This document shows positions 8,531 through 51,266 of a DNA stretch of 64,000 bases, in pieces. Source of the DNA: Yimella lutea (GTDB lineage Bacteria; Actinomycetota; Actinomycetes; Actinomycetales; Dermatophilaceae); contig NZ_VFMO01000001.1 of NCBI RefSeq assembly GCF_006715095.1, forward strand, positions 1,550,001-1,614,000. Reading direction: 5' to 3'. The position numbers and the translations under genes are program-made. Below the pieces are notes generated by a model. It saw only the letters and a program-made list of their open reading frames with translations, ran no database searches and was not told the DNA's origin. Positions within the stretch are counted from its first letter, which is position 1. Each line of letters begins with the position of its first letter.

Positions 8531-8626
8531 GGAGGCGTCAGGGTTCCTGGTGGGCCCCCCGGTCTTCAAAACCGGTGAGTCCGAGTATCTCGGGCTGGCG
8601 GGTTCGATTCCCGTCCGCCTCCGCCA
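8531..8626 (+). tRNA. selC: tRNA-Sec (anticodon UCA)
   Basis: The 96-nt sequence starts GGAGGCG and ends CGCCTCC-G-CCA, forming the acceptor stem with an encoded CCA. The anticodon arm is CCGGT-CTTCAAA-ACCGG with anticodon TCA at 8566-8568, which reads UGA. A long variable arm (about 8576-8597) and a T arm with the GGTTCGATTCC loop region complete it. The length, long variable arm and UCA anticodon identify selenocysteine tRNA. It lies just upstream of selA. Confidence 0.96.
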
Positions 8627-22810: not shown

Positions 22811-22866
22811 ACGAGCAGCGGCACCGACCCGAACGGGCGGCGCGGCGAGTGCATCGATCCGCGCTT

Positions 22867-22970
22867 GCCGTAACCCGGTCGGGCTACGGCCCGGTCGTCA
22901 CCTGGAGCACCCCACCGCGGTGGAGGGTTGCCGCTCAGCAAGCCAGGGCTTGTCGCTGAGTCTCATGACC
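22867..22970 (-). ncRNA. SAM-IV riboswitch
   Basis: The minus strand from 22970 begins GGTCATGAGACTCAGCGACA, then AGCCCTGGCTTGCTGAG, CGGCAACCCTCC, CGCGGTGGGGTGC and GGTGACGACC. This follows the actinobacterial SAM-IV consensus. The opening GGTC pairs with the closing GACC, as in P1. A 10-bp hairpin just 3' (22867-22890, loop GACC with one wobble pair) fits the extra 3' helix of this class. It should sense S-adenosylmethionine and lower expression of the desulfurase-like gene, whose start is about 80 nt downstream. Confidence 0.88.
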
Positions 22971-44966: not shown

Positions 44967-46499
44967 ATGACGAACGCGGCGAAGACCTACGAAGTGCGCA
45001 CCCACGGGTGCCAGATGAACGTCCACGATTCCGAACGGATCAGTGGCCTGCTGGAGTCCGCGGGCTACGTCGACGTCGCGTCGGTGTCGTCGGACACTCG
45101 TCCCGATGTCCCCGACGTCGTCGTCTTCAACACCTGCGCGGTCCGTGAGAACGCCGACAACAAGTTGTACGGATCGCTCGGCCACCTGCGTCCGTGGAAG
45201 AACATCAACCCCGACCTGCAGATCGCCGTCGGTGGTTGTCTGGCTCAGAAGGATCGTGCCTCCATCGTCGATCGCGCGCCCTGGGTGGACGTGGTCTTCG
45301 GCACCCACAACGTCGGCGCGCTGCCGGTGCTGTTGGAACGCGCCCGGCACAACGCCGAGGCCCAGGTCGAGATCCTCGAATCGCTCGAGACCTTCCCGTC
45401 GACGCTGCCGACACGCCGCGATTCCGCGTACAGCGGTTGGGTGTCGATCTCGGTCGGCTGCAACAACACCTGCACCTTCTGCATCGTCCCTGCCCTGCGC
45501 GGCAAGGAGAAGGACCGCCGTCCGGGCGAGATCCTCGCCGAGATCCAGGCGCTGGTCGATCAGGGGGTCGTCGAGATCACCCTGCTCGGGCAGAACGTCA
45601 ACAGCTATGGCGTGGAATTCGGTGACCGTCAGGCGTTCAGCAAGTTGCTGCGTTCCTGCGGCGACATCGAAGGGCTTGAGCGAGTGCGGTTCACCTCACC
45701 GCACCCAGCGGCGTTCACCGACGACGTCATCGACGCAATGGCCGAGACCCCGAATGTCATGCCGTCGTTGCATATGCCGCTGCAGTCCGGTTCGGACAAG
45801 GTGCTGCGTGAGATGAAGCGCTCGTACCGATCGGCGAAGTTCCTCGGCATCCTCGACCGGGTGCGCGACCGCATCCCACACGCTGCCATCACCACCGACA
45901 TCATCGTCGGGTTCCCGGGCGAGACCGAGGCCGACTTCGAGGAGACGATGCGCGTCGTCCGCGAGGCCCGCTTTTCCTCGGCGTTCACCTTCCAGTACTC
46001 CATCCGGCCCGGCACGCCGGCTGCGACGATGCCCGAACAACTTCCGAAAGCCGTTGTGCAGCAACGGTTCGACCGGTTGCTGCAGTTGCAGGAGGAGATC
46101 TCCTGGGCCGAGAACCGCGAGATCGAGGGCCGCACCATCGAGGTGCTCGTCGCGCCGACCGAGGGACGCCGCGACAGCCGGACCGGGCGCATGTCCGGTC
46201 GCGCGCAGGACAACCGCCTCGTCCACTTCGCAGTGCCGACCGGGGAGGGCGTCGAGCTGCCGCGTCCGGGCGACTTCGCCACCGTCGACGTGACCTACGG
46301 TGCCGGGCACCACCTGATCGCCGACGGTGTGCTGGGCGGCGGAACGTTCTCCGTCCGCCGCTCCCGTGGAGGTGACGCGTGGCAGGCGTTGCAGGAAGGC
46401 AAGGCCGACGGCGCGACCGTCAAGCCCAAGGTCGCACTCGGCATGCCCTCGATCGGACAACCCGCACCCGTGCAGGTTCCTGCCTGCGGTATCGACTGA
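44967..46499 (+). CDS. miaB: tRNA-2-methylthio-N6-(isopentenyl)adenosine methylthiotransferase
   Basis: This 510-aa radical-SAM enzyme adds the methylthio group to i6A37 in tRNAs reading UNN codons. The N-terminal cysteines are in [28 protein letters not shown] and VGGCLAQKD; the radical SAM motif is [12 protein letters not shown]; a TRAM domain lies near the C-terminus, followed by an extension of about 50 residues. It would act on tRNA already prenylated by MiaA, encoded about 5 kb downstream. TACCCT at 44952-44957 ends 10 nt before the ATG. Confidence 0.95.
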
Positions 46500-46570
46500 C
46501 CCTTCGGGCCACCGCACCGCGACTCGACCCGTCCGCCGATGTCGCACCCACGAGGTGGACACTGGCAGGC

Positions 46571-47791
46571 GTGAGTTTTCAGGGGTACCGGCGCGGCGAC
46601 GTCGGCTACCGCAACATCACCCTGGCTCTGTTCGCGGCGGGCATGGCGACCTTCGTGGCGATGTACTCGGCTCAGGCCGTCCTGCCGGAACTGTCGGACG
46701 AATTCTCCGTCGGCCCGGCGACCTCCGCTCTTGCGATCTCGGCCACCACCGGGTTGTTGGCGCTCGCGATCATCCCGGCCAGTGCGCTGTCCGAACGATT
46801 CGGACGCGTCCGGGTGATGGCCTTCGCAGCGCTGGCCTCCGCGCTGCTCGGATGCCTCATGCCGCTGGCAGCGTCGATGGAAGTCCTGTTGCTGCTGCGC
46901 GGCTTGCAAGGCCTGTGCCTCGCCGGGGTGCCCGCCACCGCGATGGCCTACCTCACAGAGGAGGTCGACGCCGAACATCTCGGTAGCGCGATGGGGCGCT
47001 ACATCGCCGGCACCACTGTCGGCGGTCTCAGCGGACGGGTGCTGGCCGCTCTCGTGCTGGACCACGCGAGTTGGCGATGGGCGCTCGAAGCAGCCGGTAT
47101 CGCGGCCCTCGCGTTCACCGGGCTGTTCCTGTGGCGGGCGCCGGGGTCCCGGTTCTTTGTGCCACAACCTGTCGGTCTACGCGCGACCACTACGAATGTT
47201 GTCGGCCACCTGCACAACGCCCGCCTGGTCGCGTTGTACGTGACGGCGTTTCTGCTGATGGGTGGATTCGTCGCGGTCTACAACATGATCGGATTCCGTT
47301 TGAGCGCAGCGCCGTTCGGACTGCCGCAGTCCGCCGTCGGGCTGGTGTTCCTGCTTTATCTGGCGGGTACGGTCTCGTCGGCCGCCGCGGGTCGATTGGC
47401 CGACCGTTTCGGGCGCAAGACCGTCCTCGTCGTCGCTGAGCTGGTGGCGGTGATCGGCTTACTGATCACGCTGCCGGCGAACCTGCCCGCCGTACTCGGG
47501 GGAGTCCTGCTGTTCACGGCAGGCTTCTTCGCAGCGCACTCGGTGGCCAGCGGTTGGGTCGGCGCAACCGCCGACGCACACCGCGCCGAGGCGAGCGCGC
47601 TCTATCTGTTCGCCTACTATCTCGGGAGTTCGGTGCTCGGCGCTCTGGCCGGTCTGTGGTTCGCGGCCGACGGCTGGGCGGGCGTCGTCGTCTACGTCGG
47701 CGTGCTGTTCGCGCTGGCGCTTGCTCTGGCCGTGATCATTCCGTTGCTGCGAAGGCGATGCGCAGCCACTCGTGCGTCGGGCGTATCCTGA
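46571..47791 (+). CDS. Major facilitator superfamily transporter
   Basis: This 406-aa protein has about 12 membrane segments and MFS signature loops: ALSERFGRVRVM between TM2 and TM3 and AGRLADRFGRKTVL in the second half. It resembles drug/metabolite exporters of the YnfM type. The substrate is unknown. I chose the GTG at 46571 (VSFQGYRRGDVGYRN), just before the first hydrophobic stretch; the frame is open further upstream. Its last codons overlap the likely promoter of the trpS leader. Confidence 0.82.
   Translation: MSFQGYRRGDVGYRNITLALFAAGMATFVAMYSAQAVLPELSDEFSVGPATSALAISATTGLLALAIIPASALSERFGRVRVMAFAALASALLGCLMPLAASMEVLLLLRGLQGLCLAGVPATAMAYLTEEVDAEHLGSAMGRYIAGTTVGGLSGRVLAALVLDHASWRWALEAAGIAALAFTGLFLWRAPGSRFFVPQPVGLRATTTNVVGHLHNARLVALYVTAFLLMGGFVAVYNMIGFRLSAAPFGLPQSAVGLVFLLYLAGTVSSAAAGRLADRFGRKTVLVVAELVAVIGLLITLPANLPAVLGGVLLFTAGFFAAHSVASGWVGATADAHRAEASALYLFAYYLGSSVLGALAGLWFAADGWAGVVVYVGVLFALALALAVIIPLLRRRCAATRASGVS
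47784..47789 (+). promoter_or_regulatory. -10 element of the trpS leader transcript
   Basis: TATCCT lies 8 nt before the leader-peptide ATG and within the last codons of the MFS gene. Its spacing predicts that transcription begins at or next to that ATG, so the peptide would be translated without a 5' leader. Confidence 0.55.
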
Positions 47792-47796
47792 TCCGC

Positions 47797-47838
47797 ATGT
47801 CGAACACTCTCGCCCAGGGGTGGTGGCCGTCCTCCTAG
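47797..47838 (+). CDS. trpS leader peptide (MSNTLAQGWWPSS)
   Basis: This 13-codon frame contains two adjacent Trp codons (TGG TGG at 47821-47826) and ends in TAG. It lies 111 nt upstream of trpS and 31 nt before a strong terminator hairpin. A tandem-Trp leader before a tryptophanyl-tRNA synthetase fits ribosome-mediated attenuation: with little charged Trp-tRNA the ribosome would stall here and allow read-through into trpS. Confidence 0.85.
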   Translation: MSNTLAQGWWPSS

Positions 47839-47876
47839 GCGGCCGTGTCGACATACCCACTTCACTCGCGCCGCCT
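47837..47876 (+). promoter_or_regulatory. Possible antiterminator pairing in the trpS leader
   Basis: AGGCGGC at 47837-47843 is complementary to GCCGCCT at 47870-47876, the 5' arm of the terminator. A ribosome stalled on the Trp codons would leave 47837 onward free to form this pairing; one that reaches the stop codon would cover it. Confidence 0.65.
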
Positions 47877-47893
47877 CGCACGAGGCGGCGTTT
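47869..47893 (+). terminator. trpS attenuator terminator
   Basis: CGCCGCCTCG (47869-47878) pairs perfectly with CGAGGCGGCG (47881-47890), followed by TTT. It lies between the Trp leader peptide and trpS. The short U-tract is common in high-GC genomes. Confidence 0.8.
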
Positions 47894-47948
47894 CGCATGC
47901 GCGAGCGTCTCGACGGGCGGGGCGGCTGCTTCGATCAGGAGCAGAACC

Positions 47949-49019
47949 ATGTCAGACGAATCCTTCGAGGCCGCCCGGGTCCGCAGCAACACGGTGCAGG
48001 CGGTGATCGACGGTCCCGACTCACCGGCCCGCCGAAAGCTGCGGGTGCTCACCGGTGACCGACCGACGGGCCCGCTGCACGTCGGCCACTACCTCGCCAG
48101 CATTCGCAACCGGGTCGAGTTGCAGGACAAGGGAATCGACTCCTTCGTCATCATCGCCGATTACCAGGTGATCACCGACCGGGACGCCGTCGGTGAGTTG
48201 GGGACGAACGTCTTCGGCTGCGTCCTGGACTACCTCGCCGCCGGCATCGATCCGGCACGGACGACTATCTTCACCCACTCCGCAGTGCCTGCGCTCAACC
48301 AACTCATGCTGCCGTTTCTGTCGTTGGTAACCGACGGCGAACTTCGCCGGAACCCGACGGTGAAGGACGAACTCGCCGCCACCGACGGGCGTCCGATGTC
48401 CGGCCTGCTGTTGACCTATCCGGTGCACCAGGCGGCCGACATTCTCTTCTGCCATGGGAATGTGGTGCCGATCGGCAAGGACAACCTGCCGCACGTCGAG
48501 CAGACCCGGGTGATCGCACGTCGCTTCAACAACCGGTACGCCGGTGGCGAGACGGTGTTCGCCGAGCCGGACGCTCTGCTCACCGAATCGCCACTGTTGC
48601 TCGGGCTGGACGGCACCAAGATGAGCAAGTCGAAGGGCAACACGATCACCCTCGCGATGACGGCGGACCAAACCGCTGCCGCCGTCCGGAAGGCACGCAC
48701 CGATTCCGAGCGGGTGATCACCTACGAACCTGATCGCCGTCCCCAGGTTGCTTCGTTGTTGGAGATCGCCGCAGGGTTCGAGGGTCGTGCGCCCGGTGAG
48801 CTCGCTGCGCAGATCGGGGACGCAGGTGCAGGCGGGCTGAAGAAGCTCGTCACCGATGCGGTCAACGAAGGACTTCGCGACCACCGTTCGCGCCGAGCCG
48901 AGTTGGCTGCCGATCCCGCGTACCTGCACATCGTGTTGCGTCAGGGGAACGAACGAGCGAACGCGGTGGCAGATGCCACGCTCGCGACGGTCCGTGCAGT
49001 GATGCGGATGAACTACTGA
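47949..49019 (+). CDS. trpS: Tryptophanyl-tRNA synthetase
   Basis: This 356-aa class I synthetase charges tRNA-Trp. It has the HIGH-like RPTGPLHVGHYLASI and the KMSKS motif DGTKMSKSKGNTI. Other family segments are VIIADYQVITDRD and LTYPVHQAADIL. An AGGAG precedes the ATG. Expression is probably set by the Trp-rich leader and attenuator directly upstream. It is convergent with the APH-like gene. Confidence 0.96.
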   Translation: MSDESFEAARVRSNTVQAVIDGPDSPARRKLRVLTGDRPTGPLHVGHYLASIRNRVELQDKGIDSFVIIADYQVITDRDAVGELGTNVFGCVLDYLAAGIDPARTTIFTHSAVPALNQLMLPFLSLVTDGELRRNPTVKDELAATDGRPMSGLLLTYPVHQAADILFCHGNVVPIGKDNLPHVEQTRVIARRFNNRYAGGETVFAEPDALLTESPLLLGLDGTKMSKSKGNTITLAMTADQTAAAVRKARTDSERVITYEPDRRPQVASLLEIAAGFEGRAPGELAAQIGDAGAGGLKKLVTDAVNEGLRDHRSRRAELAADPAYLHIVLRQGNERANAVADATLATVRAVMRMNY

Positions 49020-49038: not shown

Positions 49039-49881
49039 TCAGGAGTATGCGCGCAGTGCGTCCGCGATCATCCGATGACCCTGGGCTTCGAAGCCCTCGT
49101 CACGTACCTGGAAGGCCCAGGCGGCCGTGCCGATCGCCTCACGGATCAGCATGCGGTGCCACGCGTCCGGCTCGCGTGGATCGTCGCCGTACCCGTCGAG
49201 AAACGCGGTTTCGAGATCGCGACGCCCGACGAACTGCTGGGTCGCCAAGCGTGCGAAATCGCTTGCGGCAGGACGGTGCTCGGCGCGTCCGAAGTCGATG
49301 ATCCGGATCGTGCTCTCGTCGTCCAGCCAGTTGCGCGGCTGCCAGTCACCGTGCGTCGGGACGAGGGTCACCGGGGGAGTCGGCCACGACGCAATGACTT
49401 CCCGCAGCCTTGTCTCGGCAGTGGGCTCGATGCGGTGCGGCTTGTCGAGCCAGGCGAGGGCCTTCTTGCGCAGTGCTTCTTCGTATCTGATGTCGACCTG
49501 TGAAGTGCTGGAATGGATGCGGGCAAGGAGCGCGCCGGCCTGCCGGTAGGTCTCGGGCTTCGATTCGCTCGCCGTGTTCTCGACGAGTTGTCCGGGAAGG
49601 TAGTGGGTCACGAGCAGGCGTGCGTCGGCGTCCTCGTGGAGCAGCACGGGCGCGTGACCTGTCGACGCGAGCACGGGCACCCACTCGCGATGCGCTGCGA
49701 TCTCTCGCACCAGGTGATGGTTGTCCTGGCCGGACGCCTTGATGATCACCCGTCGCCCATCTGCTGTGACGCCCTCCTGGACGACGGTGTCGACCAGCCC
49801 CCAGCTGTGGTCCCGGACGATCTCGATGCCGGGGCACCATGATTCAAGGAGCAGGTGCTGTTCGGCGCTGAGGGTCGACAT
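49039..49881 (-). CDS. Aminoglycoside-phosphotransferase-family kinase-like protein
   Basis: This 280-aa protein has the APH/choline-kinase fold: the catalytic loop VPTHGDWQPRNWLDD and metal-binding IRIIDFGRAEHRP. The N-lobe lysine lies in GRRVIIKASGQ. Such proteins phosphorylate small hydroxyl compounds; antibiotic resistance should not be assumed. TAGGCT at 49894-49889 (minus strand) is 8 nt before the ATG, predicting a leaderless mRNA. It is separated from rtcB upstream by a strong terminator. Confidence 0.82.
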   Translation of the reverse strand: MSTLSAEQHLLLESWCPGIEIVRDHSWGLVDTVVQEGVTADGRRVIIKASGQDNHHLVREIAAHREWVPVLASTGHAPVLLHEDADARLLVTHYLPGQLVENTASESKPETYRQAGALLARIHSSTSQVDIRYEEALRKKALAWLDKPHRIEPTAETRLREVIASWPTPPVTLVPTHGDWQPRNWLDDESTIRIIDFGRAEHRPAASDFARLATQQFVGRRDLETAFLDGYGDDPREPDAWHRMLIREAIGTAAWAFQVRDEGFEAQGHRMIADALRAYS

Positions 49882-49969: not shown

Positions 49970-51139
49970 TCAGTCGCCCTTCACATTGACGATCTGCCGC
50001 AGCGTGTGCCGCACCTCCACCAGGTCGGCGGCGTCCGCCATCACCTGGTCGATGTCCTTGTACGCCTGCGGGATCTCGTCGATGAACGCGTCGGTGTCCC
50101 GGTACTCGATGCCGACCATCGCCTCCTGGAGCTGCTCCCGGGTGAAGGTCTTGCGGGCCTTGCTTCGCGAGTACTCCCTGCCGGCACCGTGCGGGGAGCT
50201 GTTGAGTGACAACGGGTTTCCCTTGCCGACCACGACGTAGGACGCGGTGCCCATAGAGCCCGGGATCAGGCCCGGACGACCCGCCTCGGCGTTGATCGCA
50301 CCCTTCCGGGACAACCAGACCTGCTTGCCGAAGTGGGTCTCCTGCTCGGTGTAGTTGTGGTGGCAGTTGATCCGTTCCTGCTGCTGCACCGGCACACCCA
50401 TCCAGTACTCCAGCTGGGTGATCACCCGGTCCATCATCTCCTCCCGGTTCAGCAACGCGTAGTGCTGTGCCCACCGCAACTCCCGGATGTAGGCCCAGAA
50501 CTCGTCCGTGCCCTCGACCAGGTATGCAAGGTCGTTGTCCGGCAACGAGATCCACCACTTCTGCGCCAACTGCTGGGCGACCTTGATGTGGTTTGACGCG
50601 ATCTTGTTGCCGACGCCCCGCGAACCCGAGTGCAGGAACAGCCAGACCCGATCCTGCTCGTCCAGGCTCACCTCGATGAAATGGTTGCCAGAACCCAGCG
50701 AGCCCAGCTGCAGGTCCCACTTGCCGGCGTACTTCGCCGGGTCGAAACCTGCGTCCGTCGCCATGGCCGCGAGCTCGTCGACCCGTGCCTGGGTGTGCTC
50801 GCGGGAGATCTTCCGGTTGACGCCGCCCGCCGACAGCGGGATCGACCGCTCGATCTGCTTCCGCAGCTTCGACAGGTCACCCGCGATGTCGGCCTTGGTG
50901 AACTGGGTCCGCACCGCGATCATGCCGCAGCCGATGTCCACACCGACCGCCGCCGGGATGATCGCTGCCTGCGTCGGGATGACCGAACCGACGGTTGCTC
51001 CCCGGCCCAGGTGTGCGTCTGGCATCAGCGCGAGGTGCGGGAAGATGAAGGGCATCGACGCCGTAAGTTCTGCCTGCTCGCGCGTGTTGTCCTCCAGGAT
51101 GCTTGCCCAGTTCCAGAGCCGCTCGTTGATCTTCTGCAT
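49970..51139 (-). CDS. rtcB: RNA-splicing ligase RtcB
   Basis: This 389-aa GTP- and manganese-dependent ligase joins 2',3'-cyclic phosphate or 3'-phosphate RNA ends to 5'-OH ends. It has AAVGVDIGCGMIAVRT (metal-binding Asp and Cys), SLGSGNHFIEV, LFLHSGSRGVGNKI, NCHHNY, and the guanylation-site region NSSPHGAGREYSRSKA. The ATG at 51139 follows AAGGGAG. No archease or RtcA gene is adjacent. RtcB in bacteria repairs tRNAs and rRNA cut by toxins; the local role is unknown, though the region is rich in tRNA genes (miaA, miaB, trpS). Confidence 0.94.
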   Translation of the reverse strand: MQKINERLWNWASILEDNTREQAELTASMPFIFPHLALMPDAHLGRGATVGSVIPTQAAIIPAAVGVDIGCGMIAVRTQFTKADIAGDLSKLRKQIERSIPLSAGGVNRKISREHTQARVDELAAMATDAGFDPAKYAGKWDLQLGSLGSGNHFIEVSLDEQDRVWLFLHSGSRGVGNKIASNHIKVAQQLAQKWWISLPDNDLAYLVEGTDEFWAYIRELRWAQHYALLNREEMMDRVITQLEYWMGVPVQQQERINCHHNYTEQETHFGKQVWLSRKGAINAEAGRPGLIPGSMGTASYVVVGKGNPLSLNSSPHGAGREYSRSKARKTFTREQLQEAMVGIEYRDTDAFIDEIPQAYKDIDQVMADAADLVEVRHTLRQIVNVKGD

Positions 51140-51266
51140 GGTCCTACTCCCTTCGTTCTCATCCCACACTCATCAGGTGTGCGTGGGTGGGTTCTTCGTA
51201 ACCGAGGATTGACGTCCGGATGCCGTCGAATGATCCATCGAATGCGAATGTTGTTGTCGGACAACG

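Follow-up and report, generated by a model that had tools for sequence, protein, structure and literature searches.

The attenuator of the E. coli trp operon combines tandem Trp codons with competing hairpins. The auxiliary, indolmycin-resistant trpS of Streptomyces coelicolor (trpRS1) is reportedly also subject to ribosome-mediated transcriptional attenuation (Vecchione and Sello, 2010). The locus described here lies in a 64,000-nucleotide stretch of DNA (the window, ~67% GC) and resembles the S. coelicolor system as reported: an auxiliary TrpRS exists beside a housekeeping one, a Trp leader peptide precedes it and ribosome-mediated attenuation would control it. It differs in that the organism probably belongs to another order of Actinomycetota and in that the window leader has two Trp codons. 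Tandem Trp codons and competing hairpins are likewise shared with the trp operon attenuators, but the window element would control a tRNA synthetase and not biosynthesis. For Corynebacterium and Streptomyces, attenuators of the trp operon are given in the accessible text of PMC1262725, where a classical attenuator is also predicted before trpS2 of S. avermitilis and where trpS attenuators are named for Streptomyces only (Seliverstov et al., 2005). TrpRS1 is resistant to indolmycin according to the available part of a review (PMC9437257). In S. lividans TK24, RNA-seq shows a leaderless Trp leader (trpL2) before trpS; in the available text this leader precedes a monocistronic trpS with hairpins and no U-rich stretch, an arrangement that the window locus resembles, while its sequence, MMTRTCTQLWRAA, has a single Trp where the window leader has two (PMC8079986). 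No survey of trpS attenuators beyond Streptomyces was found in the literature searched, a search that most subscription papers lay beyond.

We propose that the window trpS, an auxiliary tryptophanyl-tRNA synthetase gene, is very probably controlled by a ribosome-mediated transcription attenuator that senses Trp-tRNA on a leaderless leader mRNA. While such control of trpS was known from Streptomyces, it appears to be widespread in actinobacteria. Rfam 15 does not recognise this arrangement in the window or in the 12 relatives scanned: its Trp_leader family (RF00513) gave no match at gathering in any of them, and no Trp leader was found among the Rfam matches up to E 10 in 47600-48050.

The Trp leader and its competing hairpins

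The preliminary description of this DNA reported a 13-residue frame with adjacent Trp codons before trpS, and the frame is there: a predicted leaderless leader peptide gene, MSNTLAQGWWPSS, runs for 13 codons from the ATG at 47797 to the TAG stop at 47836-47838 (47797-47838, forward strand, as are all parts of the element), between the stop codon of an MFS gene (47789-47791) and trpS (47949-49019). It is short and its tandem Trp codons (47821-47823 and 47824-47826; together 47821-47826), the putative sensor, lie near its end, a design kept in relatives and expected of a Trp-codon leader, of which translation is predicted. A predicted -10 box, TATCCT (47784-47789), stands 7 nt 5' of the leader start codon, its first base opening the interval that had been flagged. 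In a promoter survey of 49 leaders, the motif TANNNT occurs 6-7 nt 5' of an in-frame start codon located before the Trp codons in 49/49, versus 0/1184 control positions; this start is the one chosen first in 42/49 and another in-frame upstream start in the other seven (L061, L075, L078, L088, L095, L112 and L120), and in L028 the motif is listed at a later start codon while also being present at the first ATG. This spacing leads us to predict that the window leader mRNA is leaderless, with its 5' end at ~47797. WW, WWW or WxW is found in 47 of the 49 leaders, L013 and L117 having a single W, and the leaderless Trp-Trp mini-ORF could serve as a simple marker for auxiliary trpS genes.

The MFS transporter ORF (46379-47791) lies directly 5' of the leader, and the first base of its stop codon is the last of the -10 box; none of its 25 listed NCBIfam matches reaches its cut-off. 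The trpS frame is itself open upstream to 47772 (a 415-codon ORF, 47772-49019), across the leader and the terminator, so that automatic annotation could call the start too early and hide the leader.

Regions 3 and 4 form a terminator-like hairpin (47868-47891, -21.2 kcal/mol) which folds with 9 Watson-Crick pairs, one G-U pair and a loop of 4, and is followed by a short U-tract; the segment 47865-47895 is unusually stable (z -4.2), with 0/200 shuffles as stable. What had been described as a perfect 10-bp terminator at 47869-47890 followed by TTT is thus correct for the hairpin and the TTT but not for the pairing, since a perfect 10 bp would need a 2-nt loop. Region 2, the antiterminator strand AGGCGGC (47837-47843), overlaps the leader stop codon. 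It repeats the 3' arm of the hairpin and, as had been proposed, can pair with its 5' arm, being complementary to the GCCGCCT there: the 2:3 helix (47837-47879, with the 3' arm not yet made) folds at -16.1 kcal/mol. In the untranslated leader, region 2 is held in a 1:2 (protector) structure (47797-47854), which folds at -28.7 kcal/mol for 47797-47868 and is part of a whole-leader fold of -49.9 kcal/mol; against shuffles, the whole leader has a z of -4.4, and 0/200 fold as well. The distance from the start of the first Trp codon to the start of region 2 is 16 nt, which agrees with the earlier suggestion that region 2 starts where a ribosome stalled at the Trp codons would leave RNA free. The positions and folds are those of an attenuator, in that a stalled ribosome would free region 2 while a ribosome at the stop codon would cover it. 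Since the terminator (-21.2) is favoured over the antiterminator (-16.1) at equilibrium, the switch must be kinetic.

How could such a switch operate? The transcript would begin with the A of the leader AUG or with an adjacent base, so that the first ribosome would load on a leaderless mRNA. Given ample Trp-tRNA, this ribosome would translate both Trp codons, reach the stop codon and cover region 2, such that regions 3 and 4 would form the terminator and trpS would go untranscribed. When Trp-tRNA is scarce, during Trp starvation or when the housekeeping TrpRS is inhibited or overloaded, the ribosome would stall at UGG UGG and leave region 2 free from ~47837; region 2 would then capture region 3 while region 4 has yet to be transcribed, and RNA polymerase would read into trpS. 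A leader that is not translated would adopt the 1:2 plus 3:4 fold, with trpS off. The anatomy, the pairing options, their conservation, the coordinated change of the competing segments and the second trpS are all computed observations, to which we add by inference the transcription start, leader translation, termination and the response to uncharged tRNA. The element had been called a full ribosome-mediated attenuator; its anatomy and its conservation speak for this name, and the U-tract, only UUU and then CG behind a strong hairpin, is weak.

The copies of trpS

The window trpS encodes a tryptophanyl-tRNA synthetase of 356 aa (47949-49019), which scores 216 bits against TIGR00233 (cut-off 176.75). 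It had been presented as the only trpS in view, which is true of the window but misleading for the genome (3.53 Mb, one contig, completeness 100), where two trpS genes score above the NCBIfam cut-off: the second, housekeeping-type gene (G000:C1:3200780-3201766, 333 bits) lies 1.6 Mb away from the window gene. The idea that the window gene is the sole trpS of the genome is rejected accordingly, and with it falls the contrast with Streptomyces that had been drawn. Given the housekeeping-type gene elsewhere in the genome, the attenuated gene is, by sequence, of the auxiliary type (TrpRS1/TrpRS II-like). The two are 32% identical, and R38 and Q73 of the window protein (Gln and His, respectively, in the housekeeping copy) are the same in all 21 proteins of its type that were aligned; these positions are putative indolmycin contacts.

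Among the structures in the PDB, 1yi8 and 2a4m (deposited as TrpRS II) are the best relatives of the window TrpRS. This kinship raises the question of whether the product could, like Deinococcus TrpRS II, be the nitration partner of a nitric oxide synthase, the leader then controlling a non-charging stress function. We consider this highly improbable: the genome has no match to PF02898, a search in which 2/14 control genomes (Bacillus subtilis and Deinobacterium chartae) were positive, and in many genomes an orthologue is the sole trpS above the cut-off, from which it would follow that enzymes of this type can charge tRNA-Trp.

Trp leaders were also sought elsewhere in the genome. No WW or WxW ORF of 4-30 codons is present in the 500 nt upstream of the housekeeping trpS, and no such leader ORF is found in the 400 nt upstream of the best of three trpE-family matches, a stretch holding two ORFs with scattered Trp that, by eye, look like frames inside the upstream gene.

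Does the leader go with a spare copy? Among the 51 genomes with at least two trpS genes (including L093 and L097, with three over the cut-off), 47 carry a Trp leader before the window-type gene, 43/51 with WW or WxW; the multi-copy genomes without a detected leader are L021, L043 (Luteimicrobium), L050 (Nocardia concava) and L063 (Streptomyces sparsogenes). A leader was found in only 4/64 evaluable sole-copy genomes: L028 and L029, which are G004 and G055 (one genus), a Propionibacteriaceae MAG (L042) and Propioniciclava flava (L051). Being a MAG, L042 may only seem to be sole-copy. Copies are phmmer matches for most of the 97 related genomes and matches over the TIGR00233 cut-off for the others. 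Copy number was counted first for 41 of 80 named loci, including all leader-bearing ones, and the first sole-copy table stood at 4/29 with a leader (Fisher p about 1e-12, for that table); the remaining 39 loci were added later, and the 37 searchable ones (L074 and L091 were not) all have a single gene over the cut-off, with no WW/WxW leader counted. L034, with 41 nt upstream only, was excluded as not evaluable, G077 (L114) and L053, being one genome, contribute a single count to the 4/64, and G034 (L122) was omitted from the table given its broken trpS match, missing terminator and 81% completeness.

The link between leader and copy number is strong in counts, although it reflects few independent events and is not strict. 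A tree of 79 proteins implies at least 5 changes of copy state and 10 of the leader; it contains only 4 supported independent pairs, with on average 2.4 changing the same way and 0 the other way, which is not significant by a sign test. Comparing multi-copy with sole-copy genomes offers a way to test whether a self-starving sensor is tolerated chiefly where a further TrpRS sustains basal charging.

Conservation and coordinated change

Relatives of the window trpS were gathered from 97 related genomes (96/97 with a match, DNA being taken for the best 30), from 80 named loci (the best among the first 590 matching stretches, of which 584 were confirmed) and from 10 further upstream regions, which makes 120 upstream regions in all; L053 and L114 are one locus among these, and neither passes the following test. 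A strict test required an ORF of 6-26 codons that begins with ATG or GTG and contains WW or WxW, then a hairpin of at least 7 bp, with a segment between the ORF and the hairpin able to pair with the hairpin 5' arm (2:3). It was passed by 40/120 real upstream regions and 0/714 dinucleotide shuffles; among the 40, the hairpin chosen in L103 and L118 is not the obvious one. Other regions have a Trp leader and fail, owing to an imperfect hairpin or a single Trp (L013, L015, L061, L073, L084 and L088, and on like grounds L101, L107, L116, L117 and L119). In a single-Trp version of the test, 15/714 shuffles pass, which makes the single-Trp leaders L013, L073, L117 and L119 each less certain. A WSW ORF before L048 starts with TTG and was excluded from the leader counts.

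Whether the WW peptide is conserved in relatives had been raised as a check on the attenuator, and Trp-codon leader ORFs do precede orthologous trpS genes in many actinobacterial genera: Streptomyces, Kitasatospora, Actinomadura, Nonomuraea, Saccharopolyspora, Microbispora, Nucisporomicrobium, Microbacterium, Plantibacter, Cellulosimicrobium, Promicromonospora and Propioniciclava, as well as the window's own family. The Streptomyces loci L070, L076, L084 and L085 are among these relatives with leaders, S. coelicolor itself being outside the set. The terminator-like hairpin has kept its position and changed its sequence among relatives. In L122 (G034, an assembly 81% complete), the WW leader MGSFASHAWWLPS is intact, no terminator hairpin is seen and the trpS match is broken, which reflects either an assembly error or decay.

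The competing segments have changed together across lineages, with pairing kept. Most loci of the window's family carry GGCGGC/GCCGCC as the core of regions 2 and 3. Kitasatospora, Actinomadura and one Streptomyces, among others, have GGACGGCC/GGCCGTCC; two other Streptomyces share GAGCGGCC/GGCCGTTC with Saccharopolyspora and Microbispora. The core is GCAGCC/GGCTGC in L117, Microbacterium and Plantibacter, and GCGACGGC/GCCGTCGC in L028. MAFFT mis-registered region 2, and for this reason 2:3 pairing was scored by script. The mean score is 18.9 with a leader's own partner versus 15.7 (sd 0.41) with swapped partners (n=49, including the doubtful script-picked hairpins of L061, L088, L101, L103, L107, L116 and L118); 0/500 swaps reach 18.9, a figure that is no probability because related sequences are not independent.

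These data bear on the possibility that a short ORF with two Trp codons simply happens to lie next to an unrelated terminator, one that serves the MFS gene upstream. Short ORFs are common, and the MFS gene, which ends at 47791 just before the leader, could use a terminator here; a coincidence would nevertheless have to produce the 40/120 versus 0/714 outcome of the strict test, an arrangement kept in distant relatives and competing segments that change together, and we find it barely credible. Within the genome, the attenuator appears to have no second strong copy: a covariance model comprising 7 terminator pairs only (R1) gives the window site an E of 1.1e-14 and the next site 0.0099, 150 of 4116 first-look candidates having been scored. 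That next site, at 49690-49791 of the window, falls inside an opposite-strand ORF (49039-49881) and was rejected as looking like chance.

Termination, the trpS start region and the neighbourhood

At least 3 T within 9 nt after the script-chosen hairpin are found in 34/49 loci, including the window, and fewer than 3 in 15/49; with so short a U-tract (UUUCG in the window) and 15/49 loci poor, intrinsic termination is not assured, and Rho or translational effects may play a part. Trp-tRNA could be sensed in the same manner by a hairpin that is itself no terminator, either because a Rho site is exposed or hidden or because translation of trpS is affected, for example through a helix between the post-hairpin stretch and the trpS start codon. 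We hold this to be rather unlikely. Besides the poor U-tracts, it draws on S. lividans trpL2, which has hairpins and no U-rich stretch in the available text (PMC8079986), and on the start-region data given below; yet the 3:4 hairpin ends ~57 nt upstream of the trpS start codon and excludes the ribosome-binding site, and the competition of 2:3 with 3:4 is conserved.

In the post-terminator stretch (47891-47963), complementarity and accessibility tentatively point to a helix that may cover the start codon of trpS and its ribosome-binding site. Bases directly 3' of the terminator are often complementary to the trpS start region, with 8-10 bp in L010, L016 and L040, for example. Pairing between the post-terminator stretch and the start region scores 13.1 with the own partner versus 11.8 (sd 0.36) with swapped ones, reached in 0/1000 (41 loci, 8/49 leaders being left out of the post-terminator tests: L061, L084, L088, L101, L103, L107, L116 and L118). 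The profile of complementarity to the start region is highest where the terminator ends, at 12.5 versus a background of 10.3 (sd 0.38; 0/5000 draws; 40 loci, L028 being left out of the profile and accessibility tests too). The predicted unpaired mean of the start codon is 0.39 versus 0.48 with shuffled UTRs, lower in 27/40 loci (Wilcoxon p 0.024); in the window it is 0.39 versus 0.58 with a shuffled UTR, and direct post-terminator complementarity to the start region is only 5 bp there. While both the peak and the reduced accessibility favour a hairpin acting on translation, the helix is weak or missing in many loci, only 27/40 fall below shuffles, and the profile also rises to a similar height (12.0) over the Trp codons, a second peak that we cannot account for. 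The idea of a start-codon helix was moreover drawn from the same loci that were used to assess it, and the complementarity should be regarded as a weak lead rather than a finding.

The two layers could also coexist. A leaderless Trp sensor, whose presence tracks spare-copy status, might be the first, and RNA 3' of the terminator might pair with the trpS start codon and ribosome-binding site to form a second, translational one, such that leaked transcripts would be poorly translated. We offer this combination as a speculative extension, with modest odds of being right, of the transcription attenuator that we favour.

The neighbourhood, identified by eye from translations, comprises recA, recX, miaB, the MFS transporter, trpS, an rtcB-like gene, miaA and dapF; comparison with the family library covered the MFS gene, trpS, a kinase-like ORF and the rtcB-like gene only. 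The best NCBIfam match of the RtcB-like RNA ligase ORF (49970-51169) is an intein-containing RtcB model, far below its cut-off. Elsewhere, the window carries a SAM-IV riboswitch on the minus strand (22856-22970, 118 bits) and a selenocysteine tRNA gene (8531-8622, 76 bits), which suggests that the bacterium may use selenocysteine.
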